NCBI GenBank assembly: GCA_947313855.1
Contig: CAMZNS010000009.1
Span: 1-60,443, forward strand
DNA from: an uncultured Deferribacteraceae bacterium
Lineage (GTDB): Bacteria; Chrysiogenota; Deferribacteres; CAMZNJ01
Direction of reading: 5' to 3'
Length of the DNA: 60,443 nucleotides
Numbering within the stretch: the first letter of the stretch is position 1; each line of letters starts with the position of its first letter. Position numbers and translations under genes: made by a program. Shown here in pieces: positions 24,092 to 51,196 of the stretch. A model generated the notes under the pieces. The model was not told the origin of the DNA. It saw only the letters and a list, made by a program, of their open reading frames with translations, and ran no database searches.

Positions 24092-24553
24092 CTATGTTGC
24101 GGCTATCTCGAGTATTGCTGCCCCCGTATCTTTGTCTTCAGAGAGCTGTCCGGCACGTAGTGCGTCCGCCCTAGTTTTTATCCCCGAAGAGTTCGATGTT
24201 CCGCTGAGTATTACGTCTGGTGTGTACATGTTGTTGTCCTCTTCGGGTGCATAGTTGGCGACCTTGCTGTTCAGGTTTCCGTATGGAGCGTTGGTGTTTG
24301 GGAGACCGCTTCCCCTTGCTTGTAGAATCAGTTTCCAGCCTTCGATGCAGTCTAGTGAGGCTGACAGTCTTGGGTTACGTTCTTTGATACGTTTGAGTTC
24401 GCTATCGATGATCGTTCTTTCATCTGTTGTGAGAACGAAGTCGCCGTCTTTTCGTCCCTCTTTCACTAGGATATTTTCTTTAGCGGCTATGGTTTTTTTC
24501 AGTTCGATTATTTCTTTGTTGAGTTTGTTTTTGTTTTTTTTGAAATCAAACAT
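24092..24553 (-). CDS. Hypothetical protein in phage head cluster (153 aa)
   Basis: I do not recognise a family. The N-terminal 35 residues are Lys/Glu-rich and look like a coiled coil; the rest is mixed polar sequence. Its start overlaps the stop of the preceding 165-aa gene by 8 nt, and it is the last gene of the minus-strand phage-type cluster. Position after the portal gene suggests a virion or assembly role, which is inference only. Confidence 0.6.
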   Translation of the reverse strand: MFDFKKNKNKLNKEIIELKKTIAAKENILVKEGRKDGDFVLTTDERTIIDSELKRIKERNPRLSASLDCIEGWKLILQARGSGLPNTNAPYGNLNSKVANYAPEEDNNMYTPDVILSGTSNSSGIKTRADALRAGQLSEDKDTGAAILEIAAT

Positions 24554-25043
24554 TATTGTGTTCTCCGTCGTTAGTTTTCAAGTTTAGTTCGGTATTGGCG
24601 ATGAGTTGAGCGTCGATATTTTTTGCCATATTTTTTATCTGTTCGTCGTTGTTAATGTTTGTGGCATTTTTGAGTTGTAGGTTTAGTGCTTCGCTGTATT
24701 GGTTTGCGAGGTTTTTTTGTAGGTTATTGAACAGAGTTTCTTCAGAGTTGTTGTCGTTGTTTTCGGTATCATAGTCGTTGTTTTCGGTATCATAGTTATC
24801 GTTTTGTTCTTGGATAATATGTTTTGGTAGGTTGAGGATATAATCCAGCCATCCGATCTGTCCGAGTCGTTCTGTTCTTTCGGTGGGCGACAGTTTTTCT
24901 GATTTGCCGTTGAAGATGGCGACACCGTGTAGTGCTTCTTGGTAGAGAGCGAGTCTGCTTTCGTTTATTATGTTTGACAGGACTTCCCACCCTTGTGCGT
25001 TGATCATTAGTTCTAGTGCGTCTTTCTGTTCTTTGGTAAACAT
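24546..25043 (-). CDS. Hypothetical protein in phage head cluster (165 aa)
   Basis: No family recognised. The protein is Asn/Gln/Glu-rich and helical in character, with a 7-residue tandem duplication (NDYDTEN) encoded by a 21-nt unit in its middle. It lies 58 nt after the portal gene with an AGGAGG-type ribosome binding site, and overlaps the next gene by 8 nt. A small virion or scaffolding-like protein is possible but unproven. Confidence 0.6.
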   Translation of the reverse strand: MFTKEQKDALELMINAQGWEVLSNIINESRLALYQEALHGVAIFNGKSEKLSPTERTERLGQIGWLDYILNLPKHIIQEQNDNYDTENNDYDTENNDNNSEETLFNNLQKNLANQYSEALNLQLKNATNINNDEQIKNMAKNIDAQLIANTELNLKTNDGEHNNV

Positions 25044-25101
25044 CCCTTCCTCCTCATCGTTTGAAATTACGTCTTGCTTTGTTTATTGTTGTTGTTTGTT
25101 T

Positions 25102-26613
25102 CTAGTTGTTTGTTTCTAGTTGGTCGTTACTTTCCACAGATTTTATGCCCATGGTGTGCACGAGTGTTTTGAGCATCTGTTGTGCACCATCTTTGTCGTC
25201 CGAGTCGAGGTACATTTTGAATGCTCTTTCCATGAGAGCGGCTTGTACGTTGACGTTGGCACCACTTAGCCCAGAGGATATGATAGTTGAGAATCGGAAA
25301 ACGTCTTCTTTGAGCATCTGTTTTAGGGCATCGTGTTTGCTGTGTATGTAAATTAGTCTTGTTGCGTGTCCTAGCATCTCTTCGAAGAATGTTTCGTTGT
25401 ATGATCGAATCATGCTTTGTAGCCTTGTTGCGGCTTCAGAGGCTAGTATTGATAGTCCTTGTGCTGTTTGGTATTTCCCGTCAGATTTTTGCAAGCTTAT
25501 GAGTGGGTCTATTCCGAGAGCTTCGTCGATATCTTTTTTGAGTTCGTCGATTTGGTTTTCGGTAATCCCCACTGATGGTGCTTTCATAACTTGTATTGCG
25601 TTTAGGGCGTTAACTCGAATGATGCTTCCGGGTCCACGTTTTATGTCCATGGGGTTGATGCCTGATCCTATTGCTGCGATCATTTTTGGGTTTAGTGCTT
25701 CAGCGATGCTGTCTATCTGCTGATTTTTCTTGATGTTAATCTCAGTTTGTATTGGTATGAGTCCGGCGATTGGTGAGTCGCCGTAACAAGCAACGGCGTC
25801 TGTTTCGTATGATGGAGTTATTTGTGGTAGTAGTGTGCCTGAGAAGATTGGTAGTCCGTCTTTTAGTGGCACAAACGATCGGAGCACATATTTTCCTCCC
25901 ATGATGGTGGATATGTACCACATGTCGCCACTAGTGCTGCTTGTGTTTTTGAGGCTGTATCGTGTGTAGACGTCCATGAGTTCGACCTTGTTGCTTAGTC
26001 GTTTGTCCGCCTTATTTTTTCTGTTATCGTCATTTGCCATGTCCCTGAGAGCTTTTTGGAACTCTTTAGTGGCAAAGATTTTGTTTCGTCCCAGCTCTTT
26101 AAACTTCATTTCAGACAGATACACTCGGTTGACTACGTATGTTGAGTCTTGGAATGTTTTGGCGTTCGGATCGAAGTAGATATCCTCCAAAGGGATATGC
26201 TCGATGACTATTCCGTTGTCCCAAAAGCATTTGGCGGCAACAGTACCGTAGAGAATCCCCTGGTAGAATGTTGGTGTGAGCCTCGTGAGCAGGGCACTAC
26301 GCTGTAGGTGAGTGTTTAGTACCCGTTCGAGTGTTTTCGCTTTTTGTGCGTCCTGCGGGTTTTCGGGTGCGATAAGTGCTAGTGATTCAAGGTTGAAGTA
26401 TGTTGCTTGGAATGCTGCTGCAATACGCTTGACCTTTGTGTTGATGATGGGGAAGAAGATATGCGACTTGCCACGCTCGTGCATGTTTCGACGTGATTCC
26501 TTGTCAAAGCGACCGATATAGTTGTCAGTAATTTTGTCGAAAGTGGGCTTATATTTGGCATAACCACGTTGTGCGTCCTCGATGATTCCGAGTAGATCGT
26601 TTAGGTTGTTCAT
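25102..26613 (-). CDS. Phage portal protein, podovirus-like
   Basis: The 503-aa protein resembles head-tail connector (portal) proteins of podovirus-like phages: an N-terminal region with IINTKVKRIAAAFQATYF, then VIEHIPLEDIYFDPNA, a central region with YGDSPIAGLIPIQTEINIKKNQQIDSIAEALNPK, and a long C-terminal helical part (ALGIDPLISLQKSD...QTAQGLSILASEA). Portals form the dodecameric ring through which DNA is packaged by terminase. The reading frame is intact. It follows the Mor-like gene by 11 nt. Assignment rests on pattern recognition, not a search. Confidence 0.8.
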   Translation of the reverse strand: MNNLNDLLGIIEDAQRGYAKYKPTFDKITDNYIGRFDKESRRNMHERGKSHIFFPIINTKVKRIAAAFQATYFNLESLALIAPENPQDAQKAKTLERVLNTHLQRSALLTRLTPTFYQGILYGTVAAKCFWDNGIVIEHIPLEDIYFDPNAKTFQDSTYVVNRVYLSEMKFKELGRNKIFATKEFQKALRDMANDDNRKNKADKRLSNKVELMDVYTRYSLKNTSSTSGDMWYISTIMGGKYVLRSFVPLKDGLPIFSGTLLPQITPSYETDAVACYGDSPIAGLIPIQTEINIKKNQQIDSIAEALNPKMIAAIGSGINPMDIKRGPGSIIRVNALNAIQVMKAPSVGITENQIDELKKDIDEALGIDPLISLQKSDGKYQTAQGLSILASEAATRLQSMIRSYNETFFEEMLGHATRLIYIHSKHDALKQMLKEDVFRFSTIISSGLSGANVNVQAALMERAFKMYLDSDDKDGAQQMLKTLVHTMGIKSVESNDQLETNN

Positions 26614-26624
26614 TATGATGTCCT

Positions 26625-26999
26625 TTAGTTTGAAGTAGTTGATTGTTTGTTTAGGTGCGAAGGGGCAGCCGTGGCTCGACGTACCATCTTGGTGGAGTCG
26701 TAGTCGTCAATGTAATCCAAGTCTTCACGACACTCTTCGCGATAGGATCGAGCAAGGTTGTAGTAGCTAGCACGGCTAATGCCAGTACTTTCTCGCACGT
26801 CATTTTGGCTGCAATCTATTTCAATTAGTACGCGTGCAAGCTTCATGCGGTGCATTTTGGATGGTATTCGTATTACCAAGCCGCTCAAGTACTCGCATAG
26901 CCGAAACGCTGCCAAGAAATCTCCGTCCAACGCCTCCACAAGGGTATCAAATGTATTGGATTCATCGTGGAACTGTGTAGCATTACTTTGTTTTGTCAT
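26625..26999 (-). CDS. Mor-like HTH transcription activator
   Basis: A 124-aa protein whose centre, LCEYLSGLVIRIPSKMHR, then a helix-turn-helix DVRESTGISRASYYNLARSY (about residues 71-90), resembles the Mor/C activator family of Mu-like phages. I start it at the ATG (26999) that has GGAGGG five nt upstream; the ATG 12 nt earlier would overlap that site. It heads the unit containing the portal gene and lies behind a near-consensus promoter with a leader of about 260 nt. It is a good candidate for the regulator of the phage-type genes. A small terminase subunit is a less likely alternative. Confidence 0.6.
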   Translation of the reverse strand: MTKQSNATQFHDESNTFDTLVEALDGDFLAAFRLCEYLSGLVIRIPSKMHRMKLARVLIEIDCSQNDVRESTGISRASYYNLARSYREECREDLDYIDDYDSTKMVRRATAAPSHLNKQSTTSN

Positions 27000-27415
27000 A
27001 TATCCCTCCAAGTGTAGTTAAAATACAAAAGTTTTATTTTGTAAAACTATTAAAAGTATACAAATCGTTAATACTGGACTAATGTAACAGTAAGCACACT
27101 GAGAGCATTGTTGTTCTTGCGATATAGTGCTTTTTGGTGCACAATTTGAGTATGCAAGTAGCAACGGTAGAGTAATAATCAAAAGCGTTGCAACCACTAT
27201 GGTTGATGGTTTTCGGGTGTATTAGTTTTCCTATGGAGCCATATTGCTTAAATATGAACTTCTATTAAGAATATAGCAATAAGTTTACCAATTGTCAACT
27301 TTCCGCAATAAATAGAAAATTAATTCGCTATATGAAGAGTCGAACTACTACCCCGTCCCCCTCCTAACCCTATTGTTGCCCGTATGGATGTACTTTTAGT
27401 CGTTGCCTGATACCC
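27000..27415 (-). other. Regulatory gap inside the phage head cluster
   Basis: These 416 nt contain no supported gene. On the minus strand they hold a near-consensus promoter (27270-27298) and a long leader with a perfect hairpin CAACCA-TAG-TGGTTG near 27190-27204. The gap splits the cluster into a capsid unit upstream and a regulator-portal unit downstream. Confidence 0.65.
27270..27298 (-). promoter_or_regulatory. Near-consensus promoter before Mor-like gene
   Basis: On the minus strand, a perfect -35 box TTGACA (27293-27298) is followed after exactly 17 nt by TATATT (27270-27275). Transcription would start near 27262 and read into the Mor-like regulator and portal genes. It is among the strongest promoter matches seen in the window. 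Confidence 0.75.
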
Positions 27416-27973
27416 CTACACCGGTATGTTGTTTGTCATACCTGTTACTGTGTATCTAGCGTTCCAGTCGGTACTGCTTCGATACATCCGCCCTTGCGAA
27501 TAGTACTTCTTCCCAGCTTTAGCCATAAGGTCGTAGCACTGCTCTATGGTTGCACTGCTTACGGAGATAAAGCTCTGCTGTGAGGCAACAAATCTGTCGG
27601 CAGTTATGGAGTAGGTGTTAACTTTCGTGGCTGCAGATATGTAGCTCGTCAGCACGCTTGCATTAGTTTTGGCCACCTCGTTTAGTGTTTGGATGGCGAG
27701 TTTGGCATCATGTTGTTCGTTGTCGATGGCTATCTTCATGAGTGCAAGGGCGGCGTCATGGGCTAGGCGTTGCATGTCGGAGAAGTATTTCCCGGCGAAG
27801 CGAAAAAGAGCCTCCATTCGTTTTTCGGGTTCCATGTCGTTGAGTCCCATGTTACCGGCTTGCCTTTCAGCGATGACGAAGAAGTAGTCTGATGATTGCA
27901 GGTATGTGTTGATTGTTCGGGCGTAGTCCACGTATCTCATGGCGTACCCGTTTCTGGGTGTGTAAGGTTGCAT
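27416..27973 (-). CDS. Hypothetical virion-associated protein (185 aa)
   Basis: No family recognised. The sequence is mostly helical and polar, rich in Ala, with a conserved-looking Tyr-rich N-terminus (MQPYTPRNGYAMRYVDYA). It follows the 233-aa gene with 34 nt between and belongs to the unit led by the major capsid gene. A head-completion or minor virion protein is a reasonable guess from position. Confidence 0.6.
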   Translation of the reverse strand: MQPYTPRNGYAMRYVDYARTINTYLQSSDYFFVIAERQAGNMGLNDMEPEKRMEALFRFAGKYFSDMQRLAHDAALALMKIAIDNEQHDAKLAIQTLNEVAKTNASVLTSYISAATKVNTYSITADRFVASQQSFISVSSATIEQCYDLMAKAGKKYYSQGRMYRSSTDWNARYTVTGMTNNIPV

Positions 27974-28007
27974 GTTTACTCCTATCTGTTTCTTCAGTGG
28001 GTTGCTG

Positions 28008-28709
28008 CTAGATTGAGGATTGTAGCAGTAGCTCGTCCTGATTCATTGGCAGGTTGTTGTCCTGTTTGTTTACAAAGTTGAGTGTGTACGTTTTATATTC
28101 GAAAGGTATTTCGATTGTTCGATCTTCTAGGTATCTTCTGAGGAAGTTAAGGTATTTGGGTGCAAACACTTTGACAACGCCGTTGAAGTTTGCTTCAAAA
28201 ACGGCGGGGTTATTTTCAAATTCGATTCTTGCACGAATGAGGGCGTCTTTGCTGTCGTAATCGGTAAACCCTTGCTCTTCGAGGTAGTTGTAGAACTCCC
28301 AGTTGCGATTTTCGATGACACCACTCATCTCCTCCCTTAGGTATCGCCTGCTTTTTTCTGTTTGGGTCATCTCCATGGCAACAAAATAGAGGAAGATGTC
28401 CAGTGTGTAGTCGTCCATCAGTAGTGTGGTATCTTTTTGAGTCATGTATGAGAGTCGTCGAGTAAAAGGTTCGTATGTTAGGAAAAATGTATTGGTGAGA
28501 GTTTTGTATTTCACATTGTTTATGGGATCGGTGCGTACGAATCGTGCTGGTGTGATGCTAACGCACATATCGTGGAAAGCGTTTAGGGCACGGGGGAAGA
28601 ATATGAATGGTCGTTCACCGATCTCGATTTTGTTTGGTAGGATAGCGTCGAGTCGACCGCGTAGCATTAGCATGTCGAAGTGGTCGAATTCCTCCGAGTA
28701 GTTTTGCAT
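28008..28709 (-). CDS. Hypothetical virion-associated protein (233 aa)
   Basis: I do not recognise the family. The protein is rich in aromatic residues and charged pairs and lacks a signal peptide or membrane segment. It lies directly downstream of the major capsid gene, the usual place for head-tail connector or adaptor proteins. Function is inferred from position only. Confidence 0.6.
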   Translation of the reverse strand: MQNYSEEFDHFDMLMLRGRLDAILPNKIEIGERPFIFFPRALNAFHDMCVSITPARFVRTDPINNVKYKTLTNTFFLTYEPFTRRLSYMTQKDTTLLMDDYTLDIFLYFVAMEMTQTEKSRRYLREEMSGVIENRNWEFYNYLEEQGFTDYDSKDALIRARIEFENNPAVFEANFNGVVKVFAPKYLNFLRRYLEDRTIEIPFEYKTYTLNFVNKQDNNLPMNQDELLLQSSI

Positions 28710-28808
28710 TGTTAACTCCTAAATTTAGTTCCTGCGTTAGGGTTGCCCCCCCTTGGTGCTACTTGTGTGGTATTTTGTTGCGGGGGGGCTGATTGTTGTT
28801 TCTGATGC

Positions 28809-29789
28809 TTATTTCAGACCAACGCCTATGGAGAATGCATCAGCGTTTCGTAGTTCTAGTGTTGCTTCGGTGTAGTATCTTTTCGCGACGCCAGTTTTGT
28901 CGGTGTGCACTTCGGCGAGTTCTGTTGGGTAGAGTAGTCCTACTTTGGCGTAGTCGAAGTTACCAGCGATGATTGTGTCGTCTAGTGCGTTTTCTTGGTT
29001 CATGAATCTTGATAGGTGTATGTTTACTGTTCCGAAGTCGGTTTCGAGTGCGACTAGTCTTCCGACGTAAGTTGTTTGGTCGCTGTAGTTTCTGTTGACG
29101 AAGGAGTTTATTCTTGCTTTGAGTGTTGTTCCGACGAAAACGTCTTTTACGGTTTCACCGGCGTTGTATGTTTGTTGTAGAATTGTGTTGAATTTGTTCC
29201 AGTCCATGGTGGATTTGGTACCGGTCCAGTCTTTGGAGCTGTCGTAGGCGGTGATGTTCCCTTTTTTGCCGTTAGTGAAAGTGGTTTCGTCTTTTGCGAC
29301 GAAGTAGAACATACCGGCGGCTTCTCCGGGTTGGTTTTCGCTTCTGTGTATGGGTTCTTTGAGTAGTGATATTTTTGGATCGTTGTCTCTGTTTAGTCCT
29401 AGAATCATCTGTTCGAGTAGTTTTTTGTGTTCTTTGGCTTTTTTAGCGACTTCGTGTTCGAGTTCGTTACCGCCGTAGGCTTTGATTTGCGTCATTGTTT
29501 TTGATACGAATAGTTCGGTTTTGAATATTTCCACAGCATTGCTGTTATTTTGTTTGTGATTGACTTGTGTTGTGTTGAGGGAAGAGATTTCGTTTTCGGG
29601 AGTACGTTCGGGGTCACCGATTTTGTCGATTACCCATGAGTGCGAAGTATTTGTTACTGCAGATGTTCCCATTGCTTTGAGCATTGGTGTTTCGTCGCTT
29701 CCCACGAGGATAATTCCTTCGTAAACGGAAGGTTTTGTTCCTGTTGATGGTAGGTTTGCCTGTGGGTATGATGTGCTAGTTATCGCCAT
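28809..29789 (-). CDS. Phage major capsid protein, DUF5309/SU10-like
   Basis: The 326-aa protein resembles the SU10-type major capsid family: an N-terminal VYEGIILVGSDETPMLKAMG followed by THSWVID-type HSWVIDKIGDPE, then a long helix with ELEHEVAKKAKEHKKLLEQMILGLN, and a C-terminal segment VNIHLSRFMNQE...DYAKVGLLYPTELAEVHTDK. In such proteins an HK97-like fold forms the head shell. The gene has an AAGGAG site 9 nt before the ATG and is transcribed away from msbA. The frame is intact. Identification is by sequence pattern. Confidence 0.75.
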   Translation of the reverse strand: MAITSTSYPQANLPSTGTKPSVYEGIILVGSDETPMLKAMGTSAVTNTSHSWVIDKIGDPERTPENEISSLNTTQVNHKQNNSNAVEIFKTELFVSKTMTQIKAYGGNELEHEVAKKAKEHKKLLEQMILGLNRDNDPKISLLKEPIHRSENQPGEAAGMFYFVAKDETTFTNGKKGNITAYDSSKDWTGTKSTMDWNKFNTILQQTYNAGETVKDVFVGTTLKARINSFVNRNYSDQTTYVGRLVALETDFGTVNIHLSRFMNQENALDDTIIAGNFDYAKVGLLYPTELAEVHTDKTGVAKRYYTEATLELRNADAFSIGVGLK

Positions 29790-29879
29790 AATTTAAGTCT
29801 CCTTGTTATTGGTGGTGTGAGAGCATGTTACAGTTGTTGGTGTCCAGAGTTGTCATCAGGCATGGACAGGAAAGTTTTT

Positions 29880-29908: not shown

Positions 29909-29994
29909 TCGGTATTTGAAAATCGGGCTATGATCGGTTGAGTTGGCTTAGTTGTCATGGTTGGTCTAGTCGTTTTATTGAAGTGGAGGTGCGG

Positions 29995-31731
29995 ATGTCG
30001 CCCCAGAAATTAACCCTTAGAAGTTATATTATAAAATACAAGTACTACCTAATCATTGCGATGGTTGCGGCGATGTTTGCTTCTGCCATCGATGGTGCAA
30101 CGGTGTATGGGATAAAGGCTTTGACCGACACGGCTATTTCGGAAGACAATACCAAGGCATTGATACTTATTGCTGCTGCTATTGTTCTTGCGAATTTCAT
30201 CAAGCTACTCGTCAAGTTTGGTCAGACTATTCTCATGCGTTATGTTGCGTTCCAGTATGTGATGGAGCTTCGCAACATACTTTTGGGCAAACTTGTGCGT
30301 CTGTCCATGGGCTACCTGTCCAACCATTCCACAGGTGAGCTGTTGAGTCGTGTTACTTACGACACAGGCATTATGGCTGATGCACTCAATGTTGTTACCG
30401 ACATATTTTCCCATGCAACTCGAGTATTGGTCATGGTATCGCTCCTATTTTACTTCGACTACCAGTTGGCTCTGATGACGTTCATTCTTTACCCTTTTGT
30501 TATTTGGTTTGTGGTCAAAATCGGCAAAATTATTCGTGGTTACAGCGATGAAGGTCAAAAGCGTATGGGTATTCTGACCAATACCCTTCAAGAGATATTT
30601 GCAGGTGTAACGGTTGTGAAGGCGTTTACCCGCGAGCAGTACGAGGAGGAACGCTTCAAGGATGCCAACAAACGCCTCACAAAAATAGGGTTACGACAAA
30701 CGTGGGTAGCCGAGCTAAACGGTCCATTCCTTGAGTTTGTTGGTGTGTTGGGTATGGCTGTGCTCCTTTACTTCGGTGGTGTGCGAGTGATGCAGGGGGA
30801 TATCTCCTACGGTTCACTGTTGGCGTATGTTTTGGCGTTGATAAACATCCTCCCCTCCGTACGTGTTCTAGGTGCTGCCAATGCACGCATACAAATATCG
30901 TTTGCGGCTGTTGATCGCATCAACGACATTCTTTCCCAAGCCGAGGAATCACACCTGTCTCTTGGGGACAAAACTCTGGATGCCACCAACAAAGGGATAG
31001 AGTTCCGCAACGTGGACTTCTCCTACGACGGTGCGGTGCCTGTGCTCAAAAATCTCAATATGAAGATAAATCATGGCGAAACCGTTGCCCTTGTGGGTCC
31101 ATCCGGTGGGGGGAAGACTACCATCGGCAATCTCCTTGGTATGTTTTACCGTCCGAACTCAGGGGATATTCTGATTGGTGGCGAAAGCATACTTGATTGT
31201 AGCGTACACTCCTTGCGTCGTAATGTTGGTTACGTATCCCAAGACAACTTTCTGTTCAACACTACCATCGCCAAAAATATCGCCTACTCAGTTGGAGAGG
31301 CAAATATGGACATGGATAAAGTTATGGATGTTGCTAAAAAGGCGTACGCCCACGATTTTATCATGGAGTTCCCCGACGGTTATGAAACTGTCATCGGCGA
31401 ACGTGGTCTTCGTGTTAGCGGTGGTCAACGCCAACGCCTAACCATTGCTCGTGCCATGTATTCCGATTTCCCCATACTGGTGCTGGACGAAGCAACATCC
31501 GCACTAGACCAAGAATCTGAGCGAGTGGTGCAACAAGCCATCGACAACCTCATGGGGAACAGAACAACGATAGTTATTGCCCACAGGCTCTCCACCATTA
31601 TCAACGCTAGCAAAATATTTGTCATCAGCAACAACCATGTTGAAGCATCGGGGGTGCATAGCGAATTGCTGAAGTCGTGTAGTTTGTACAGAAACCTGTA
31701 TGAGTCCACGGCTAGCAAAGAGGGTGCCTAG
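29995..31731 (+). CDS. msbA: MsbA-type lipid A exporter ABC transporter
   Basis: A half-transporter of 578 aa with six membrane helices (residues about 15-310) and a C-terminal ATPase domain. Walker A VGPSGGGKTTIG (about 366), signature VSGGQRQRL (about 474), Walker B ILVLDEATSALD (about 495) and the H-loop IVIAHRLSTI are intact. MsbA flips core-lipid A across the inner membrane; the next genes (two LPS glycosyltransferases and lpxK) support that role. The start follows GGAGG at the ATG 29995; the open frame upstream lies in the leader. A peptide or drug exporter is the alternative. Confidence 0.85.
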   Translation: MSPQKLTLRSYIIKYKYYLIIAMVAAMFASAIDGATVYGIKALTDTAISEDNTKALILIAAAIVLANFIKLLVKFGQTILMRYVAFQYVMELRNILLGKLVRLSMGYLSNHSTGELLSRVTYDTGIMADALNVVTDIFSHATRVLVMVSLLFYFDYQLALMTFILYPFVIWFVVKIGKIIRGYSDEGQKRMGILTNTLQEIFAGVTVVKAFTREQYEEERFKDANKRLTKIGLRQTWVAELNGPFLEFVGVLGMAVLLYFGGVRVMQGDISYGSLLAYVLALINILPSVRVLGAANARIQISFAAVDRINDILSQAEESHLSLGDKTLDATNKGIEFRNVDFSYDGAVPVLKNLNMKINHGETVALVGPSGGGKTTIGNLLGMFYRPNSGDILIGGESILDCSVHSLRRNVGYVSQDNFLFNTTIAKNIAYSVGEANMDMDKVMDVAKKAYAHDFIMEFPDGYETVIGERGLRVSGGQRQRLTIARAMYSDFPILVLDEATSALDQESERVVQQAIDNLMGNRTTIVIAHRLSTIINASKIFVISNNHVEASGVHSELLKSCSLYRNLYESTASKEGA

Positions 31732-31762
31732 ATGCTAGACGCTAGCAAAGAGGGTGCCTAGA
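31711..31762. repeat. 22-bp direct repeat duplicating the msbA end
   Basis: GCTAGCAAAGAGGGTGCCTA is present at 31711 and again at 31741, each followed by GA, a 30-nt period. The first copy encodes the last residues and stop codon of msbA; the second lies just after it. Confidence 0.92.
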
Positions 31763-31818
31763 CACAGGCTTGCAAAATACTGCTACCCGAACTTTTTATT
31801 AAAGGAGCTACTATTATT

Positions 31819-37527: not shown

Positions 37528-37569
37528 TGAAAAATAGTGTTCGTGTAGGCTATGCAAGGGGTGATTTAG

Positions 37570-40650: not shown

Positions 40651-40691
40651 CTACAGGTAGCTAGCTACAGGTAGTTAGCTACAGGTAGTTG
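40650..40691. repeat. 14-nt tandem repeat between addB and addA
   Basis: Three copies of GCTACAGGTAGCTA (second and third with one or two changes) begin at the last base of the addB stop codon and fill half of the 83-nt gap before addA. Confidence 0.9.
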
Positions 40692-40733
40692 TGGGGGTTT
40701 GGGCAACAGTGATGGTCAACGGTATGGGGGGGG

Positions 40734-44393: not shown

Positions 44394-44438
44394 TGTGGGG
44401 GTGTGCGTGTAGTGCGTGTAGTGCGTGTAGTGCTAGGT

Positions 44439-45269
44439 CTAGTGTTTGCGTGTCATCTTCATCTTGGCGAATAGCTTTTCTGCTTGTTCAAGATCTTCGG
44501 GGGTGTCGATGGAAATGGAAATGGAAATGGACGTGGACGTGGACGTGGACGTGGACGTTTCGAGGACTTTGATTTTGTGTCCATGTTCGAGTAGTCTGAG
44601 TTGTTCCAGTGATTCGGCGATTTCCAGCGGTGTGCGTGTCATTTTGGTGAATTTCATGAGGAAGTCCCTATGGAAGCCGTATATTCCTAGGTGTTTGTAG
44701 AGGTTGTGTTTTTCGTTATTGTTTGTGTTGGGTTTGTTCCTTACGAAAGGTACGACGCTTCGCGAGAAGTATAGGGCGTAGTTGTTCATATCTTTGACGA
44801 CTTTGACCGTTGAGTTGGATTGCAGTTCGGTGGTAAGATCGTTCTCTGTTTGCGTTGTGTTGTTGAGTGCTTCGCATGCTGTGTTAACGTAGTGTGTGTG
44901 TTTGTTGTTGTCGAACTGTTTTTGGAAGTCGTCCACCAGCATGTTGATTATTTTGGGGTCGAGGAATGGTTCATCCCCCTGCACGTTGATTATGACGTCA
45001 AACTCTGTTGCCACTGTGTTGGCAACGTATGCTACTCGATCGCTCCCTGTTGCGAGGTTTGTTGGTGTGAGAACGGGTGTAACGTTGAGGTGTTTGACAG
45101 CTTGTGCAATGAGTTGGCTATCGGTGGCGACAAACACCTTGTGCACGTTGCTTTCGAGGCATCGTTCAGCGGTATGAGCGATGATTGGTATTGCACCGAT
45201 TGTTTGTAGCATTTTTTGGTGCAGTCGCGATGATTCTAGTCTTGCGGGGATAATTACGGCACTTTTCAT
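44439..45269 (-). CDS. kdsB: CMP-KDO synthetase (3-deoxy-manno-octulosonate cytidylyltransferase)
   Basis: KdsB activates KDO with CTP for lipid A-core synthesis in the cytosol. The 276-aa protein begins SAVIIPARLESSRLHQKML (nucleotide-binding loop), has VFVATDSQ, LATGSDRVAY, INVQGDEPFLDP and ends with the conserved DTPEDLEQAEKLF. Just before that end, a Thr-Ser/Ile-Ser run from a 6-nt array replaces the usual short loop. It is convergent with addA and followed upstream by kdsD on the same strand. Confidence 0.95.
   Translation of the reverse strand: MKSAVIIPARLESSRLHQKMLQTIGAIPIIAHTAERCLESNVHKVFVATDSQLIAQAVKHLNVTPVLTPTNLATGSDRVAYVANTVATEFDVIINVQGDEPFLDPKIINMLVDDFQKQFDNNKHTHYVNTACEALNNTTQTENDLTTELQSNSTVKVVKDMNNYALYFSRSVVPFVRNKPNTNNNEKHNLYKHLGIYGFHRDFLMKFTKMTRTPLEIAESLEQLRLLEHGHKIKVLETSTSTSTSTSISISISIDTPEDLEQAEKLFAKMKMTRKH
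44509..44559. repeat. 6-nt tandem array inside kdsB
   Basis: Eight to nine hexamers, GGAAAT then GGACGT read on the plus strand, encode alternating Ile/Thr-Ser on the minus strand. They lie directly before the conserved C-terminal motif of KdsB. Confidence 0.9.
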
Positions 45270-45287
45270 GTATTACGCCTCTTTCGT

Positions 45288-45339
45288 GTTGTGTTATGTT
45301 GTGTTATGTTGTGTTAGTTGTGTTATGTTGTGTTAGTTG
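45288..45339. repeat. 10-nt repeats between kdsB and kdsD
   Basis: About five imperfect copies of GTGTTATGTT lie in the 70-nt gap between the two KDO genes. The plus strand is free of C over most of the array. Confidence 0.85.
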
Positions 45340-46320
45340 TTATTTGCCGAAGTCGTAGTATTCGACAATGCCTAGTAGTTTGTTGTTTTGTGCAACAATG
45401 AGGGTTGTTATCTTGTATTTTGTCATAATATTTTCCATTGTTGCGACGGGTGTGTTTGGAGTGATGGTTTTTGGATTTGTGGTCATGATGTTTTGAGCTG
45501 TTTGGTCGAATATGGAACCTTTTGTGTTGCTACTTGCTAACGCTCTTCTTAGGTCGCCGTCGGTGATTATTCCTACTAGTTTTCCTGTTTTGTTGTCTAC
45601 AACAACAGTTGCCCCAATACGTCCGTAGCTGATTGCGTTGATGATGTCTTCCATGGTGCTGCTTGGGTTGACTGTTGGCAGGTTGTCTTTACGCATAACG
45701 TCTTGTGCTTTTGTGAGTAGTCGTCGTCCTAGTGATCCCCCAGGGTGGAATAGGGCGAAGTCTGAGGCGTTAAAGTTGTTGAGGTTCATGAGTGTTACGG
45801 CGATAGCGTCCCCCATGGCCATTGTTGCTGTTGTTGAGGCTGTTGGTGCGAGTTCTAGCGGGCAAGCTTCCCGCTGTACAGGTATGTGTATATTGTGGCA
45901 GGCGTTTCGAGCTATTGTTGAGTTGTTGTTGCCTGAGATGCTGATGATTGTGTTGCCGTTTTTTTTGAAGAACGGAATGAGTCGTAGCAGTTCGTCAGTT
46001 TCGCCTGAGTGTGAGAGCATTAGAACGAGGTCGTTTTTGCCTACCATTCCGAGGTCACCGTGGTATGCTTCTGTTGGGTGCATGAAGAATGATGGTGTGC
46101 CGGTGCTTGCGAAAGTTGCGGCTATTTTTCGTGCAACGATGCCGGATTTTCCGAGTCCGCACACAACGACTTTGCCTTTGCATTGTTGTATTGTTGTTAC
46201 GGCTTTTGCGAAAGTTTCGTCCAGATTTTGTTTTGTAGAGTTGAGGCAGTCGATTTCGATTTGGAGTACTTGTGCTGCATGTTGTATGATATTGTTGTTG
46301 ATGTTATTTGGTGTGCTCAT
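45340..46320 (-). CDS. kdsD: Arabinose-5-phosphate isomerase (KpsF/GutQ family)
   Basis: It converts ribulose-5-P to arabinose-5-P, the first step of KDO synthesis. The 326-aa protein has a SIS domain (VVVCGLGKSGIVARKIAATFASTGTPSFFMHPTEAYHGDLGM, LSHSGETDELL, and ELAPTASTTATMAMGDA) followed by FHPGGSLGRRLL and a pair of CBS domains (residues about 205-326; ATVVVDNKTGKLVGIITDGDLRR). Same strand as kdsB, 70 nt apart, so the two probably form a KDO operon. Confidence 0.95.
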   Translation of the reverse strand: MSTPNNINNNIIQHAAQVLQIEIDCLNSTKQNLDETFAKAVTTIQQCKGKVVVCGLGKSGIVARKIAATFASTGTPSFFMHPTEAYHGDLGMVGKNDLVLMLSHSGETDELLRLIPFFKKNGNTIISISGNNNSTIARNACHNIHIPVQREACPLELAPTASTTATMAMGDAIAVTLMNLNNFNASDFALFHPGGSLGRRLLTKAQDVMRKDNLPTVNPSSTMEDIINAISYGRIGATVVVDNKTGKLVGIITDGDLRRALASSNTKGSIFDQTAQNIMTTNPKTITPNTPVATMENIMTKYKITTLIVAQNNKLLGIVEYYDFGK

Positions 46321-46532
46321 ATTTTTGTACCCCTTTGGACTTTTTGTGTTGTTGAGAGTTCGGTTTTCGCCCTACAGGTATTATGCCACAACAGTCCATT
46401 TATATCAAGTTTGCAGAGTGTATGTTTGCATTGAAAGTGCGTTGTTGTTACGATTACTGTAGAATAATTTTATTAAATTGTGGTACAGTATTTTGAGTGC
46501 AAAGATAATGTTAGTATTATGTGAGGTTTGTT

Positions 46533-47381
46533 ATGGGGTTGGTGAAAGCGGGTACACAGCCTGCAGAGACGATGAGTTTGACAAGACAGCACGGGTTGGT
46601 TTTCATCCCTTTCGATGGTGCCCTTGTGGAGGGTCGTGCGTGCATCTTGACCGATTATTCCCACAGGATTATGGATCTCTGTGACGCCAATAACAGCACC
46701 TTAATATTCACAACACACCGTTCTAGGGCTGAGGTGGATGTTATCACGAGCGGTTACCCTAAGCATTTCCGCAACTCGACTGCGTTTATTTCCGAACACG
46801 GTTCAGAGCTGATTATCCCTACACAGATGGGGGTTACTCCCCCTAAAGGGGTGCGTAGTACCGGTTCACATCATGTTATACCGTTGTGGGATAGGGGTGT
46901 GTCCCTCAAGGGGATCAACAATGTTTACCTACAGCTCAAACGCTACTACTCCATAGTAAGCCTCCTCGATGTTGCCAGCGAAACCCTTGCACGCAAAACA
47001 AATTCGTCTGTGTTGCTGATTGATGCGTTAAAGTTGCGTCGCTGCTCCATCCCTATCGTTATGAAGAACCATACCAACGACGCCTTGCCGCTCAAACAAC
47101 GCCTAGAGAAATACAACCTTACCCTTGTGGGGGAGGGTAGTCTGCGATACATTATGCACCCGTCGTGCGAGAAAAGCATTGCCATGGGTGTGGCTGAGGT
47201 ACTTTTTGCAGAGAGTAGACAATCGGTACATTTTAGTGTTGGCATGGGTATTGACAAAACAGACGAGAAACTGCTTCTAAGGTGCGACAATCCCATAAGC
47301 ATTAGCACAACCGAGGCGCCCTCAACTGAGTATGCGTTCAACGAGTTGGCTACTTTTTTCAGCAAAAGAAAGGGTTTGTAA
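46533..47381 (+). CDS. Degenerate HAD-superfamily protein (MPGP-like)
   Basis: A 282-aa protein with the layout of HAD class IIB phosphatases such as mannosyl-3-phosphoglycerate phosphatase: motif II TTHRSRAEVDVI and the cap-start FISEHGSELIIP are clear. But motif I reads FIPFDGAL where D-x-D-G-T is expected, so the nucleophilic Asp is Pro, and motif IV reads VGMGIDKTDEKLL where G-D-S-x-N-D is expected. Catalysis by the usual mechanism is unlikely. I start it at the ATG with GAGG six nt upstream. Role unknown. Confidence 0.7.
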   Translation: MGLVKAGTQPAETMSLTRQHGLVFIPFDGALVEGRACILTDYSHRIMDLCDANNSTLIFTTHRSRAEVDVITSGYPKHFRNSTAFISEHGSELIIPTQMGVTPPKGVRSTGSHHVIPLWDRGVSLKGINNVYLQLKRYYSIVSLLDVASETLARKTNSSVLLIDALKLRRCSIPIVMKNHTNDALPLKQRLEKYNLTLVGEGSLRYIMHPSCEKSIAMGVAEVLFAESRQSVHFSVGMGIDKTDEKLLLRCDNPISISTTEAPSTEYAFNELATFFSKRKGL

Positions 47382-47445
47382 TCGGTGAAAAAAGGTGTAA
47401 ACTATCCATGTCGGTTTGTAAAAATTATGTTTTAGGAGGTGGATT

Positions 47446-47640
47446 ATGCCCATTGTAACAGTACATATGGCGGCGGAAAATAATACTGAAGAGCAGAAGA
47501 GGAAGCTTATCCACGATATTACGGAGGCTTTTGTCAAAAACCTTGGGAAACCAGCAGACGCAGTAACGATTATGCTCAATGAAGTCCCCTTGGAGAATAT
47601 TGGCAAAGGGTACAAAACACTGAAAGATATACGCGGATAA
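47446..47640 (+). CDS. 4-oxalocrotonate tautomerase family protein
   Basis: A 64-aa protein starting MPIVTVHMA; after Met removal the catalytic Pro-1 is exposed. The rest (EEQKRKLIHDITEAFVKNLGKPADAVTIMLNEVPLENIGKG) follows the family, with the usual place for the second catalytic Arg occupied by a Lys-rich helix. Tautomerases of this size act as hexamers on diverse keto-enol substrates. A strong AGGAGG precedes it, and an alcohol dehydrogenase gene follows after 48 nt. Confidence 0.88.
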   Translation: MPIVTVHMAAENNTEEQKRKLIHDITEAFVKNLGKPADAVTIMLNEVPLENIGKGYKTLKDIRG

Positions 47641-47688
47641 GAATTTTCACGCAATTAAACAGATCAAATTTAAAGAGGTTACAAACAC

Positions 47689-48849
47689 ATGTTGAATTTT
47701 AGATACAGAAACCCTGTGGAGATGGTATTCGGAGCGGACGCTATCACCAAACACCTGAAAGACCTTGTTGCACCATACAAATCGGTACTACTACTTTACG
47801 GTGGCGGTTCCATCAAGAAAAACGGCGTTTACGATGACGTGGTAAGCATCCTCGGCAAGCTGGACTGCAAAGTAACCGAATTCCCCGGCATCGAACCGAA
47901 CCCCCATTACGAAACATGCATGAAAGCTATGGAAGCGGTGCGAAACAACAACGTCGACCTGATTTTGGCAGTTGGTGGCGGCTCCGTGGTGGACGCATCC
48001 AAATTTATCGCCGCTGGGGCACACTACAAAGGGGCAGACCCATGGGACTTCGTCCTATCAGGCGAACCACAATCCAAAGGGGTGCACATCGGTGCTATAC
48101 TCACACTGCCAGCCACAGGATCGGAAATGAACGCAGGCTGTGTTATCAGTCGTGGTGAGCAAAAACTCGCCTACTTCTCACCAACGGGCTTCCCACAGTT
48201 CTCCATACTCGACCCCAAAACAACCTACACTCTACCCGAAAGACAGCTCCGTAACGGGCTGATGGACTCCTACATACACGTTTTAGAGCAGTACGCAACC
48301 ACGGTCAACCCTGCCGCAAAGGTGCACGACAGGAAAGCTGAGGGACTACTCCTAGTACTTCGCGAAATCGCCGACGACGTAATGAACAAAGGGAACGACT
48401 ACGACACAAGGGTAAACCTAATGTGGGCAGCAACAAACGCACTCGACGGCTCACTAATGACAGGAGTTGCACCCGACTGGGCAACACACCTTATCGGGCA
48501 CACAATCACTGCTATCTACGGACTCGACCACGCAATAACACTCGCAATCATACTGCCAGGGGTGTGGGAACATCAGCTCGAAAGCAAAAAAGAGAAGCTG
48601 AGCCAGTACCTCATCAGAGTGTTCCAAGAAGATACGGGCGATACCATGGAAAACGCAAAACTCGCCATCAAACGCACAGAGGAGTTTTTCCACTCACTAG
48701 GCGTAAAAACACGATTGGGCGATTACGGTATCGACGCAAGTATTTGCGACAAGATGGCACCACACTACGCCACTACGGGCACAGGACTAGGGGAGCATGG
48801 CAACATCATGGCAGACGACGTTGTTGCTATCCTCAAGAGCAGGCTGTAG
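47689..48849 (+). CDS. Iron-containing alcohol dehydrogenase, YqhD/BDH-like
   Basis: A 386-aa group III dehydrogenase that likely reduces aldehydes with NAD(P)H. The cofactor motif ILAVGGGSVVDASKFIA (about residues 91-107), the ATGSEMN motif, and metal ligands in HVLEQY-type and HLIGHTITAIYGLDHA segments are all visible. The start MLNFRYRNPVEMVFG matches butanol dehydrogenases. It may share a transcript with the tautomerase. A terminator follows at 48900. Confidence 0.9.
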   Translation: MLNFRYRNPVEMVFGADAITKHLKDLVAPYKSVLLLYGGGSIKKNGVYDDVVSILGKLDCKVTEFPGIEPNPHYETCMKAMEAVRNNNVDLILAVGGGSVVDASKFIAAGAHYKGADPWDFVLSGEPQSKGVHIGAILTLPATGSEMNAGCVISRGEQKLAYFSPTGFPQFSILDPKTTYTLPERQLRNGLMDSYIHVLEQYATTVNPAAKVHDRKAEGLLLVLREIADDVMNKGNDYDTRVNLMWAATNALDGSLMTGVAPDWATHLIGHTITAIYGLDHAITLAIILPGVWEHQLESKKEKLSQYLIRVFQEDTGDTMENAKLAIKRTEEFFHSLGVKTRLGDYGIDASICDKMAPHYATTGTGLGEHGNIMADDVVAILKSRL

Positions 48850-48899
48850 CACAATCGATTATTGTTGCACAGTAGGTTGCAGCAGGTTGCCGTAAGTTA

Positions 48900-48943
48900 G
48901 GGTAGGTGTCGCCTAGATTGGAAGGGTTGCACCTACCCTTTTT
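48900..48943 (+). terminator. Rho-independent terminator after alcohol dehydrogenase
   Basis: A perfect 9-bp stem GGGTAGGTG (48900-48908) and CACCTACCC (48930-48938), with a 21-nt loop, is followed directly by TTTTT. It lies 51 nt after the dehydrogenase stop. Confidence 0.85.
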
Positions 48944-48945
48944 GT

Positions 48946-49041
48946 GTGGTCATGGCTGTGCGTGGTCATGGCTGTGCGTGGTCATGGCTGTGCGTGGTCA
49001 TGGTCGTGCGTGGTCATGGTCGTGCGTGGTCATGGTCGTGC
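48946..49041. repeat. 16-nt tandem array before the terL stop
   Basis: Six exact-length copies of GTGGTCATGGCTGTGC, the last three with TCGTGC for CTGTGC, fill the space between the terminator and the end of terL. The unit is not a multiple of three and the array is outside any gene. Confidence 0.94.
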
Positions 49042-49046
49042 ACCAG

Positions 49047-50501
49047 CTACCAGCTACCGTCAGTATCGATGGGGGCAGAGCCGTTGCTCCAGCCTGCAGA
49101 CACCTCTTCATCCCCCCATTCATCCCACTGAGGCACATGTGAGAGTCCCATCTCCAGTGCGTACGCCAGTGCGTCTAAAATATCGTCGCCATTGTTTTTG
49201 CTAGTGGGATCAAACCGCAATGCCTCTTCTAGGACTAGTTTCGGCACCTGTTCGTAGAACAATAGGCGTCCCTCCTCCAACGCCTTCAGCAGGAACAGTT
49301 CAATCCGCAGGTTTTTGCCTCGTCCTGATGGTGTTAGCTCTACCAGTGGCACAAACACGGCACTGTTTAGCATGAGGTTTCGGAACATGTCGTAATAATG
49401 CCACGATGCTGTTGTGCGTTCGATACCGACCTGTATCGGTTTGTGGTTACGAATCATCTCCAGCAGTATGTTTTGTGATTGTGTTGCACTGTAGTGTCCC
49501 GCGGAGACGTCTAGCATGTGAGCGGTGTTCCCTTTGTCCACGCCTATGACTACGATGGCTGTCCGGTCGTTTTTGGCGGCACTAGCACCATCTTTGAGAG
49601 CGATATCCACGGCGATATATTTGGTGAGTTCGTCAAGTTGTACCCCTTTGCTAATTTTAAACATGTCCACGGCAAAGAGTGTTCCGTCGGGTATGCTCCA
49701 GTCTCCGTTTAGCATTGCGTTACGCACCTTGAGGGGTAGTTTTTCCAAGTTGCGAACATACTCTTCGATGTTGATGTGTGGGTTGTCGTAGACCATGGAC
49801 GGTATGTATAATTTGTCTGTGTGGCTTGTGGTGTTAGTGTTAGTGTTAGTGTTAGTGTGAGTGTTAGTGTGAGTGTGCACGGCTAGTTTTTTCAGTTGTT
49901 CCAGGGTTAGGATTTTTGCAACACCGTGCCCGTTGTTGTCGTTGTTGTCATGTTCGTCGGTGCTTGTGATAAACCTGTCTTTTACCCATGCTTTGTACGG
50001 TACGGGGTTTGCAGTTGCTCTCATTAGGTTTGGGTATCCGGTGGTGTTCCTCAGTCGTGAGAATAGGAAGAGGTATTCGTCTTCGTAGAAGTGTGTGAGT
50101 TCGTCGAAAGCGACGTACGAGAATTCTGCTCCTTGGTATCGATAGACATGGTTTGCGTTCCCTAGGTATCCGAGGTGTATGACGGTTTTGTTGGTTAGTG
50201 TAACTTGTCCTTGAGTTTTGTTGTAGTTGTAGAGTGTGTTTGGGTAGAACTGCAATATTTTTCGTGTGATAGAGCTTTCGAGTTCCCCTTTAGTTCGTCT
50301 AACTAGTAGCATGTTTGCGTGTGGGTATTGTAGTCCGTATTTGAGTGCGTCCATGACCAACGCCATGGATTTTCCACCACCGGCGGCTCCACCGTAGAGT
50401 ACTTCTGGAACGACGAGTTCTTGTGTGTGGTGGAAGATTGCTTGTTTTTGTGTTGGTGTATAAAATTCCGATGAGTATAGCTGTAAATCGTTAGTTTTCA
50501 T
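49047..50501 (-). CDS. Phage terminase large subunit
   Basis: The DNA-packaging motor of tailed phages, 484 aa. ATPase domain: Walker A GGAAGGGKS (residues 37-45), Walker B YVAFDE (129-134) and coupling motif RATANP (about 155). Nuclease domain: YIAVDIALKDG near residue 295 and DDILDALAYALEMG near 447. All parts needed for packaging look intact. Residues about 208-224 are Asn-Thr/His-Thr repeats from a 6-nt array between the two domains. It lies 43 nt after a probable small subunit and 19 kb from the capsid cluster. Confidence 0.92.
   Translation of the reverse strand: MKTNDLQLYSSEFYTPTQKQAIFHHTQELVVPEVLYGGAAGGGKSMALVMDALKYGLQYPHANMLLVRRTKGELESSITRKILQFYPNTLYNYNKTQGQVTLTNKTVIHLGYLGNANHVYRYQGAEFSYVAFDELTHFYEDEYLFLFSRLRNTTGYPNLMRATANPVPYKAWVKDRFITSTDEHDNNDNNGHGVAKILTLEQLKKLAVHTHTNTHTNTNTNTNTTSHTDKLYIPSMVYDNPHINIEEYVRNLEKLPLKVRNAMLNGDWSIPDGTLFAVDMFKISKGVQLDELTKYIAVDIALKDGASAAKNDRTAIVVIGVDKGNTAHMLDVSAGHYSATQSQNILLEMIRNHKPIQVGIERTTASWHYYDMFRNLMLNSAVFVPLVELTPSGRGKNLRIELFLLKALEEGRLLFYEQVPKLVLEEALRFDPTSKNNGDDILDALAYALEMGLSHVPQWDEWGDEEVSAGWSNGSAPIDTDGSW
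49831..49877. repeat. 6-nt tandem array inside terL
   Basis: Seven to eight hexamers of GTGTTA/GTGTGA encode Asn-Thr and His-Thr pairs on the minus strand, at the linker between the ATPase and nuclease domains. Confidence 0.9.
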
Positions 50502-50544
50502 TGTTATCCATATATTTCTAGTAAGGGTGTTGCGTGTTTGCGTT

Positions 50545-50868
50545 TTAGTATTCTAAGTGTACTACAACAGCAGAGTTTTCGTTGTTTCCCTTTTTGGTGG
50601 TGTAGTATCGGTTTAGTATAAATTCGCCCACACTTTTGGGAATTTTGCCTTTGGTCATGAAGCTGATGATTTTGGCTTCGTCCATGGCTTTTATCTCTGC
50701 AATACGTGGTTGGAGTTCGGGGTATTTGTTTTCGATGTCGTCAAGAGTTGATTTTGCGAGTCCTCTAGTTAGTAGGTATTGCGGTATGAAGATGTCTTCC
50801 CCTTTGAGTATCCAAGTTTTGGTATCGTTTATTAGGGCTGATGCTTTTGTGTAAGTGATAGGTTTCAT
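50545..50868 (-). CDS. Probable terminase small subunit
   Basis: A 107-aa protein directly upstream of terL. Its middle, DIENKYPELQPRIAEIKAMDEAKIISFMTKGKIPKSVGEFILNRYY, has the spacing of small terminase subunits where a helical oligomerisation region is followed by an F-x-L-x-NR stretch. The small subunit recognises viral DNA and presents it to TerL. No HTH is obvious in the N-terminus, so this rests on context plus weak pattern. Confidence 0.6.
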   Translation of the reverse strand: MKPITYTKASALINDTKTWILKGEDIFIPQYLLTRGLAKSTLDDIENKYPELQPRIAEIKAMDEAKIISFMTKGKIPKSVGEFILNRYYTTKKGNNENSAVVVHLEY

Positions 50869-50898
50869 AGTGTATCTCCCCGTGTGTTTGTTTGTGTT

Positions 50899-51084
50899 TT
50901 AGGAGCACTGCTCTAGGGCGATTAGTAGTTGACGTGGGTCGACGTCACAGCTATCGGCAACGTACCTTAGTTTTGTGAAAAAGTCGATTGCGTCTTCCGT
51001 CATCATTTCGATACCTTGGTTTATCAGCCCTTCGTTTGTTAGAGTATCGTCGTAGGATTCGGTATGTTTGTGGTATGTTTGCAT
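50899..51084 (-). CDS. Hypothetical small protein upstream of terminase (61 aa)
   Basis: A short acidic frame with an AAAGGAGG ribosome binding site and only 30 nt to the next gene. No family recognised. Its first position in the terminase unit suggests cotranscription. Direct repeats of an 11-nt unit (CATGAGTTTGT, about 51118-51150) lie upstream. Confidence 0.5.
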   Translation of the reverse strand: MQTYHKHTESYDDTLTNEGLINQGIEMMTEDAIDFFTKLRYVADSCDVDPRQLLIALEQCS

Positions 51085-51196
51085 AGTTGTCCTCCTTTTG
51101 GGTTAGTTTTGAGTTTGCCATGAGTTTGTCATGAGTTTGTCATGAGTTTGCAAAAGGTGTGTGAGTAGGTTTTCTGTTTATCGAGTAATTAAACTC

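Follow-up and report, generated by a model that had tools for sequence, protein, structure and literature searches.

Among the described gene transfer agents (GTAs), that of Faecalibacterium (FpGTA) has been reported to comprise an operon with a possible small terminase subunit (TerS), the large terminase subunit (TerL), portal, scaffold and capsid, and a second operon with tail and lysis genes, ~125 kb away in one strain; its 40-nm particles hold ~9 kb of DNA (PMC12946183). The genome of BhGTA is described as likely dispersed, as that of RcGTA is (PMC9662315). Here, we analyse a stretch of 60,443 bases, hereafter the window, which is one whole contig from the genome of a bacterium of the Deferribacterota and carries phage head and packaging genes in two clusters, capsid and portal at 24-30 kb and TerL at 49-51 kb. 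A sequence-only reading of the window had proposed a GTA-like or otherwise domesticated particle. We find that the 24-30 kb cluster is inherited and kept, with good support for its domestication, and we lean, with somewhat better than even confidence, towards the view that the two clusters are GTA-like genes for heads and packaging, domesticated from an ancient phage of the type found in Campylobacter, Helicobacter and the viral contig L101, and kept by the bacterium.

The host is almost certainly 'Candidatus Rimicarispirillum atlantis', from the midgut of a deep-sea vent shrimp (Rimicaris), with a genome of 1,343,155 bases in 49 contigs that is 90.7% complete. The sole other genome of the genus that was compared is called the sister species below (G001; public isolate name M_SnakePit_MAG_00002) and is probably 'Ca. 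R. nautilei'. More distant relatives include genus g11 of family f7, which appears to be Mucispirillum, and family f8, apparently the termite-gut clade JAISNW01/Termitispirillaceae, whose genome G042 would be Iy174_bin14.

Results

Head and packaging genes at two loci

The head-gene cluster runs on the minus strand from 29789 to 24092, with all frames open:

28809..29789, minus strand: major capsid protein, SU10-type, 326 aa, first gene of the cluster (PF17236, SU10_MCP, E 7.9e-51; phrog_1328, E 2.8e-58)
28008..28709, minus strand: head-tail adaptor homologue, 233 aa (position after the capsid as in phages; profile comparison)
27416..27973, minus strand: unassigned gene, 185 aa, kept in the sister species
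26625..27011, likely start ATG near 26999, minus strand: small helix-turn-helix (HTH)-type protein (phrog_6425, E 5.9e-7)
25102..26613, minus strand: portal protein, 503 aa (PF23899, SU10_portal, E 8.6e-21; phrog_332, E 3.3e-45)
24546..25043, minus strand: unassigned gene, 165 aa, in the portal-scaffold interval, kept in the sister species, no significant phage match
24092..24553, minus strand: probable scaffold protein, 153 aa (phmmer E 2e-5 to the post-portal gene of a Helicobacter pullorum prophage)

The TerL group and the DNA between the clusters are as follows:

50899..51084, minus strand: small open reading frame (ORF), 61 aa, heading the TerL group (AGGAGG upstream; no PHROG match at E<=0.01)
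50545..50868, minus strand: 107-aa gene before TerL, TerS by position only (no significant family match)
49047..50501, minus strand: TerL, 484 aa (phrog_979, E 1.6e-61; Terminase_6N, E 9.5e-12; Terminase_6C, E 8.6e-7)
29938..48849, no strand given: host genes separating the clusters (NCBIfam matches)

From the capsid start (29789) to the TerL stop (49047) there are 19.3 kb, with genes for MsbA, two heptosyltransferase-type proteins, LpxK, AddB-like and AddA/RecB-like proteins, KdsB, and KdsD-type, HAD-phosphatase-type and Fe-alcohol-dehydrogenase proteins. The picture of two clusters ~19 kb apart with host lipopolysaccharide (LPS), repair and metabolic genes between them, first drawn by the sequence-only reading, is therefore accurate. 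Within the contig, host genes flank TerL on either side. Searches of 50 window ORFs against family libraries (ORFs of under ~80 aa and some small ones in the ribosomal operon being left out) gave no match to integrase, tail, lysis or replication genes, whose absence had also been remarked; the remaining matches were to host genes, i.e. ribosomal proteins, SecY, RpoA, a GGDEF protein, and LPS, repair and metabolic genes. Codon usage was uninformative: values for the phage genes (r 0.40-0.65) lie towards the low end of the host range (0.39-0.91).

The head-gene cluster is inherited and under purifying selection

The seven genes of the 24-30 kb cluster are intact in the sister species, in the same order and between the same flanks (msbA / glpD). 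The dN/dS between the two species (Nei-Gojobori) is 0.024 for the capsid, 0.054 for the adaptor, 0.066 for the portal and 0.072 for the scaffold, and reaches 0.136 for the 185-aa gene, 0.163 for the HTH gene and 0.176 for the 165-aa gene; six host neighbours range from 0.033 to 0.238 (msbA 0.043, glpD 0.068). The dS of the seven genes (0.34-0.70) matches that of the host neighbours (0.37-0.74), which indicates vertical inheritance. When neutral evolution was simulated at 0.2 substitutions/site, under a model with no transition or composition bias, the seven genes acquired a mean of 32 stops and none of 1000 runs was stop-free. Open frames in two species, low dN/dS and this simulation together rule out simple decay of the cluster. 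Hence, it is well supported that the 24-30 kb cluster is domesticated, inherited and kept: it shows the vertical inheritance at a fixed locus and the purifying selection that are looked for in a GTA.

For this cluster, two checks suggested by the sequence-only reading thus came out in favour of domestication, since capsid and portal evolve like the flanking host genes and the order of the seven genes is conserved together with their flanks. Its two cautions no longer hold here: the sister species, assembled separately, excludes an assembly join, and the frames open in two species and the outcome of the simulations exclude a decaying prophage.

Gene assignments

The capsid matches solved structures 9ny2 (capsid and scaffold protein, E 8.4e-7) and 7z45 (major head protein, E 1.6e-4), the latter of which we take to be from phage SU10. 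A recheck and the family matches uphold the coordinates, minus strand and intact frames originally given for capsid and portal. Two further genes had been called likely virion genes. One, at 28008-28709, is a head-tail adaptor homologue: a profile of the window protein and the adaptors of termite relatives matches phage adaptors at 95% probability (E 3e-8), and a profile from the window and sister species alone gives E 0.018 against phages and 0.016 against termite relatives, each beating the best of 60 shuffles. The other, at 27416-27973, stays unassigned. It was tried as a member of a conserved phage gene family, but shuffles equal its score in 7/60 cases (1/60 for the termite relatives alone) and homology is not established. 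AlphaFold models of the 233-aa and 185-aa proteins (pLDDT 37.5 and 45.8) were too poor to be used.

The product of 26625..27011 had been taken for a Mor-like regulator. It has no Pfam match at E<=0.1, and its homologues are small proteins that sit between TerL and the portal in phages; we read it as an HTH-type protein. The product of 24092..24553 clusters with the post-portal gene family of phages, and presumably is a scaffold given the position of that gene in phages. A candidate Rz1-like ORF at 27018-27197 (59 aa; E 0.0023 to a phage ORF) was discarded, its reading frame being lost in the sister species.

TerL has a Walker A (GGAAGGGKS), a Walker B (VAFDE) and acidic residues D299, E361 and D443 in common with its phage homologues when aligned with the TerL of the viral loci L101 and L103; we take these motifs to serve the ATPase and nuclease. 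Between its two domains there is a T/H/N-rich insert (tandem repeat at 49831-49876) that the TerL of L101 and L103 lack. It was correctly recognised as intact and on the minus strand by the earlier reading, to which we add the third small ORF, 50899-51084, at the head of the group. The TerS assignment of 50545-50868 finds no significant match in family searches, the best hint being an hhalign E of 0.016 to an L101 gene over 27 residues. The genome holds one match to phrog_979, TerL itself; the sole match to phrog_2 (E 7.8e-4) is probably a host PhoH-like ATPase. Single-sequence TerL scans of genome and viral collections found no relative.

A phage type that could have given both clusters

We compared gene order in 95 related phage and prophage loci, Deferribacterota excluded, a set with many near-identical Campylobacter prophages and with IMG/VR contigs whose hosts are unchecked. 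In all 69 loci showing both genes, the portal lies upstream of the capsid on the same strand, 4.9-9.5 kb away. The window has the opposite arrangement, with the portal downstream, which the sequence-only reading had rightly found unusual. The adaptor was found in 89/95 loci and follows the capsid immediately in 82.

Two IMG/VR loci, L101 and L103, hold in a single block a gene at the TerS position, TerL, HTH, portal, a small gene, the scaffold family, three more genes, capsid and adaptor. In L101 one of the three pre-capsid genes matches a DNA ejection family, and the adaptor is followed by an appendage-type gene and by holin and endolysin matches. The window TerL is sister to that of L101 (100/99 in a tree of 10) and also matches that of L103 (E 1.4e-72). 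A single phage block whose TerL is sister to that of the window thus holds TerL, HTH, portal, scaffold, capsid and adaptor, so both clusters can derive from one phage type. To judge from these sequences, the simplest origin would be one such phage, cut and re-ordered. The closest capsid is that of L067 (IMG/VR), at 55% identity in a clade with 100/97 support.

Related genes in Mucispirillum and termite-gut relatives

We searched for the SU10 capsid family (PF17236) in 51 genomes, i.e. the host's own, the sister species, 45 of the same class, three of the same phylum and one outside the phylum. It matched 13/51: both genomes of the window's family (f1, 2/2), Mucispirillum (g11, 9/10) and the termite-gut family (f8, 2/4). 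The tenth Mucispirillum genome (G040) has a portal match and no capsid match. PF17236 was unmatched in the rest of f7 (0/5), in f2-f6, f9 and f10 (0/29) and outside the phylum (0/1).

In five examined stretches of the nine Mucispirillum genomes with a capsid gene (G021, G022, G027, G029, G035) there is a TerS-TerL-portal-scaffold-capsid cluster. Most of them add a small gene ahead of the scaffold and one of 62 aa behind the capsid; next comes a long variable protein, in which Ig-like repeats were seen where scanned. The Ig-side flank is common to G035, G027, G030 and G022, and the other flank to G035, G027 and G021; the head locus of G032 has different genes on the Ig side. The head block together with a gene with an FGE-sulfatase domain is inverted in G021 (L055/L056) relative to G035 (L057/L058) and G027, with the variable Ig-domain protein at its end. 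In G021 a lysis cassette stands alone ~1.12 Mb from the head cluster, with an Rz/Rz1-like pair, a holin-like gene and an M15 endolysin. It is syntenic in the two genomes examined for this, which represent two species:

L207:7983-9451 (G021 C1, ~2.174 Mb) and L210:6555-8268 (G035 C3): lysis cassette

The cassette lies some kilobases upstream of mraZ-mraW-type division genes. A holin profile built from G021, G035, G042 and G025 matches 7/7 Mucispirillum genomes that are at least 90% complete (two of the seven are in the profile), plus G020, G025 and G042; the other 41/51 genomes, three less complete Mucispirillum genomes among them, gave no match. Between G021 and G035, dN/dS is 0.060 for TerL, 0.088 for portal, 0.066 for capsid, 0.147 for TerS and 0.381 for scaffold; in the cassette it is 0.062 for holin, 0.177 for M15, 0.199 for the Rz1-like and 0.342 for the Rz-like gene, and 0.024-0.165 for neighbours. 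G035 further contains a prophage-like region, separate from these loci, whose own TerL-like ORF is open.

In the termite-gut family, capsid and portal are of the window's type; the gene names around the capsid of G041 are our own reading. In G041 the capsid gene is split over two contig ends and followed by the adaptor, a 280-aa gene and a fibre-like gene; upstream of it are a HicAB-like pair and an RND-efflux-type gene. On a separate contig, an intact portal with one small ORF lies among histidine-synthesis, cinA, rlpA and cysteine-desulfurase-type (iscS-type) genes and a toxin-antitoxin-like pair. A solitary intact TerL lies on another contig, with an acyl-CoA-synthetase-type gene and a small HTH gene on one side and a carboxylase-type gene on the other. 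In G042, a probable restriction-modification pair precedes the capsid, adaptor and subsequent genes, and there is a lone intact TerL. The lone TerLs of G041 and G042 are 48-52% identical to that of Mucispirillum. G025 has a TerL and a lysis block of a different phage type.

Other features of the window and genome

Two further features adjoin the clusters:

27270..27298, minus strand: promoter-like site before the HTH-portal group (TTGACA, 17, TATATT, TG before the -10; 11/12 consensus bases)
51235..51308, plus strand: tRNA-Pro adjoining the TerL group (ARAGORN)

The promoter-like stretch is identical in the sister species; the region holds 16 promoter-like sites for a shuffle mean of 8.4. The tRNA-Pro was considered as an attachment site and dropped, as none of its 15-mers has a second copy in the window. 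Just upstream of the TerL group, at 51110-51151, there are ~4 near-copies of an 11-base unit (TGAGTTTGCCA), possibly a regulator site. Short tandem repeats, some in frame within genes, are abundant: they amount to 43 bases/kb of the window, 47 of a 246-kb genome sample and 50 of the sister species, against 13-32 in Mucispirillum stretches and 0-2 in termite-family stretches. DnaG- and sensor-like genes elsewhere in the genome have long AGD and HT runs.

Two matches in the genome were not accepted as endolysins. That to M15 is a 318-aa protein with a signal-like N-terminus adjoining an HtpX-like peptidase (names by reading). That to GH19 is a 1047-aa secreted lipoprotein-type protein (L226:2902-6045, G000 C21), probably a chitinase; it is present in the sister species too, consistent with the reported chitin degradation by the symbiont.

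Discussion

We showed that a symbiont genome keeps an old set of phage head genes at a fixed place. In the pair 'GTA-like or otherwise domesticated', the second term stands for the 24-30 kb cluster on the grounds of locus, order, frames and dN/dS, while 'GTA-like' is our best reading, unproven, by analogy with known systems and from the relatives. Several features that one would look for in a GTA are present. The head and packaging genes are intact and come from a tailed phage, probably a short-tailed one, and in the window they lie at two loci with no replication or integration gene of their own seen; a genome-wide integrase screen was not made. Capsid, scaffold, portal and adaptor would build a small head, into which TerL would pump DNA. 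With capsid and portal unlinked from TerL and no replication or excision gene seen in the window, the packed DNA would be mostly host chromosome, as in GTAs. Since capsid and TerL are unlinked, no element could preferentially package and move itself, which is the logic of a GTA. Ejection, fibre and lysis functions would then have to be elsewhere in the genome, in the unassembled 9%, or supplied otherwise. One might speculate that the use of such particles in long polyploid cells is DNA exchange or repair.

Several observations weigh against this view. Targeted searches of the assembly, as distinct from a full screen, did not find tail, ejection or lysis functions: there was no match to the fibre of G041 or to the holin profile, no small M15 endolysin, and no GH19 endolysin, the sole match being the large secreted protein. 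When 318 proteins from related phage and lysis loci were compared by phmmer with 337 kb of the genome (25%), 11 ORFs matched, five of which are the capsid, portal, TerL, HTH and scaffold of the window; the other six are non-virion by reading, including the GGDEF protein of the window and the 59-aa frame at 27018-27197. The TerL region is missing from the sister-species assembly, where a 7.8-kb query over it gave only short matches, so the comparison of the two species covers the 24-30 kb cluster only. The TerL fragment of L067, which has the nearest capsid, falls with the Campylobacter type, so the window TerL may have come from a second phage source. In the relatives, the portal frame of the Mucispirillum genome G027 is broken (L059/L060, contig C13, ~29.7-31.5 kb) in an otherwise open head cluster, possibly by true loss or by sequencing error. 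In the termite-gut genome G037 a portal pseudogene, interrupted by stops and frame breaks, is all that was found (L178:9654-10635, contig C24), i.e. the system can decay; this pseudogene is flanked by an HD-GYP-type gene and rpsO/pnp-type genes. In G042, which is 78% complete, a portal was not found. The termite relatives and the window differ in TerL type, and the clade uniting f1 and f8 portals has a support of 75/74, with a capsid AU p of 0.069 and long branches, which leaves common descent of the f1 and f8 genes neither shown nor rejected by the sequences.

Other explanations have to be weighed against the same facts. The head proteins might have been co-opted to interfere with infecting phages, or to form closed shells, with no delivery of DNA. 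Purifying selection on a gene set for which no ejection, fibre or lysis gene was found agrees with this. But the retained TerL is intact in its ATPase and nuclease motifs, interference could do without it and without the portal-scaffold-adaptor set, and Mucispirillum retains a lysis cassette too, so that we regard co-option as unlikely. We give less credit still to a prophage remnant, broken by rearrangement and not yet decayed. An intact or inducible prophage would be a contiguous phage genome that includes an integrase, regulators, and tail and lysis genes, which the window does not contain, as host genes lie between and beside the clusters; a remnant would fit the incomplete gene set, the order permuted relative to phages, and the portal pseudogene and broken portal frame of two relatives. 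Such a remnant is strongly disfavoured for the 24-30 kb cluster, whose seven genes are open in two species at a dS of 0.34-0.70, with dN/dS of 0.024-0.176 and 0/1000 neutral runs stop-free.

Capsid-forming satellites of the phage-inducible chromosomal island (PICI) type are compact islands with an integrase and their own head genes, which borrow tails. A fixed remnant of such a satellite would explain head and packaging genes found without tail genes, but there is no compact island here: no integrase was matched among the window ORFs scanned, the position is fixed in two species and TerL is unlinked from the head genes. This makes a satellite origin very improbable. Least probable of all is that a piece with TerL was wrongly joined to the contig. 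The assembly is metagenomic, tandem repeats abound in the contig and the TerL region is missing from the sister-species assembly, which would allow for such an error; against it, an independent assembly confirms the head cluster, and TerL has host genes on both sides.

A broader proposal, which we make tentatively and consider doubtful as a whole, is that gut-living Deferribacterota, the symbionts of shrimps, termites and rodents, run a gene-transfer system of interchangeable phage parts. The termite relatives would pair a TerL of the Mucispirillum type with a capsid of the shrimp-symbiont type (and in one case the portal type) at separate loci; the shrimp symbiont would combine that head type with another TerL, and Mucispirillum would have a compact head cluster with a distant lysis cassette. 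On this proposal, GTA-like machinery would have been domesticated, dismantled and re-mixed within one phylum, and would persist even in a 1.3 Mb symbiont genome. The presence of such genes in a reduced, polyploid, filament-forming symbiont bears on DNA exchange and repair in host-bound bacteria. Mucispirillum schaedleri is a cultured mouse commensal, which makes the reading directly testable. In the open-access literature searched, no publication naming such a system in Mucispirillum or Deferribacter turned up. Nor was there, among the passages found, a hint of Mucispirillum DNA in particles; a transductomics study does not mention the genus (PMC7667829).

The nearest phages by sequence are prophages and phages of Campylobacter and Helicobacter (PP935708, PV052265, BK070136) and the IMG/VR loci L067, L101 and L103, which have a homologous capsid (38-55% identity), portal, HTH-type gene, scaffold family and adaptor family, and in L101 and L103 also a homologous TerL. 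These are contiguous phages with the order TerL, HTH, portal, scaffold, further genes, capsid and adaptor, whereas the window is split and permuted; unlike the window, PV052265 and BK070136 have an annotated integrase and L101 has holin and endolysin matches. The viriform families of RcGTA, BaGTA and BhGTA (VSH-1) are described as likewise derived from Caudoviricetes and evolving with their host, and RcGTA, probably also BhGTA, as dispersed over loci (PMC9662315). Compared with these descriptions, the window differs by its SU10-type capsid, by its phylum and by being known from genes alone. Such systems would gain a phylum, probably with a separate origin, from head and packaging genes maintained in Deferribacterota. 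What is new here is that other phylum, the SU10-type head, the split of TerL from the head genes, and the mixed pairings of TerL and head among relatives. FpGTA, likened here by its published description and not by sequence, differs in that particles were seen there and genes alone here, that the window TerL lies apart from capsid and portal, and that targeted searches did not find a second operon for tail and lysis. It is similar in its head and packaging operon set apart from a second operon, in its conservation throughout a genus and in being probably short-tailed. By the same description, the most FpGTA-like arrangement is that of Mucispirillum, with its head cluster and distant lysis cassette.

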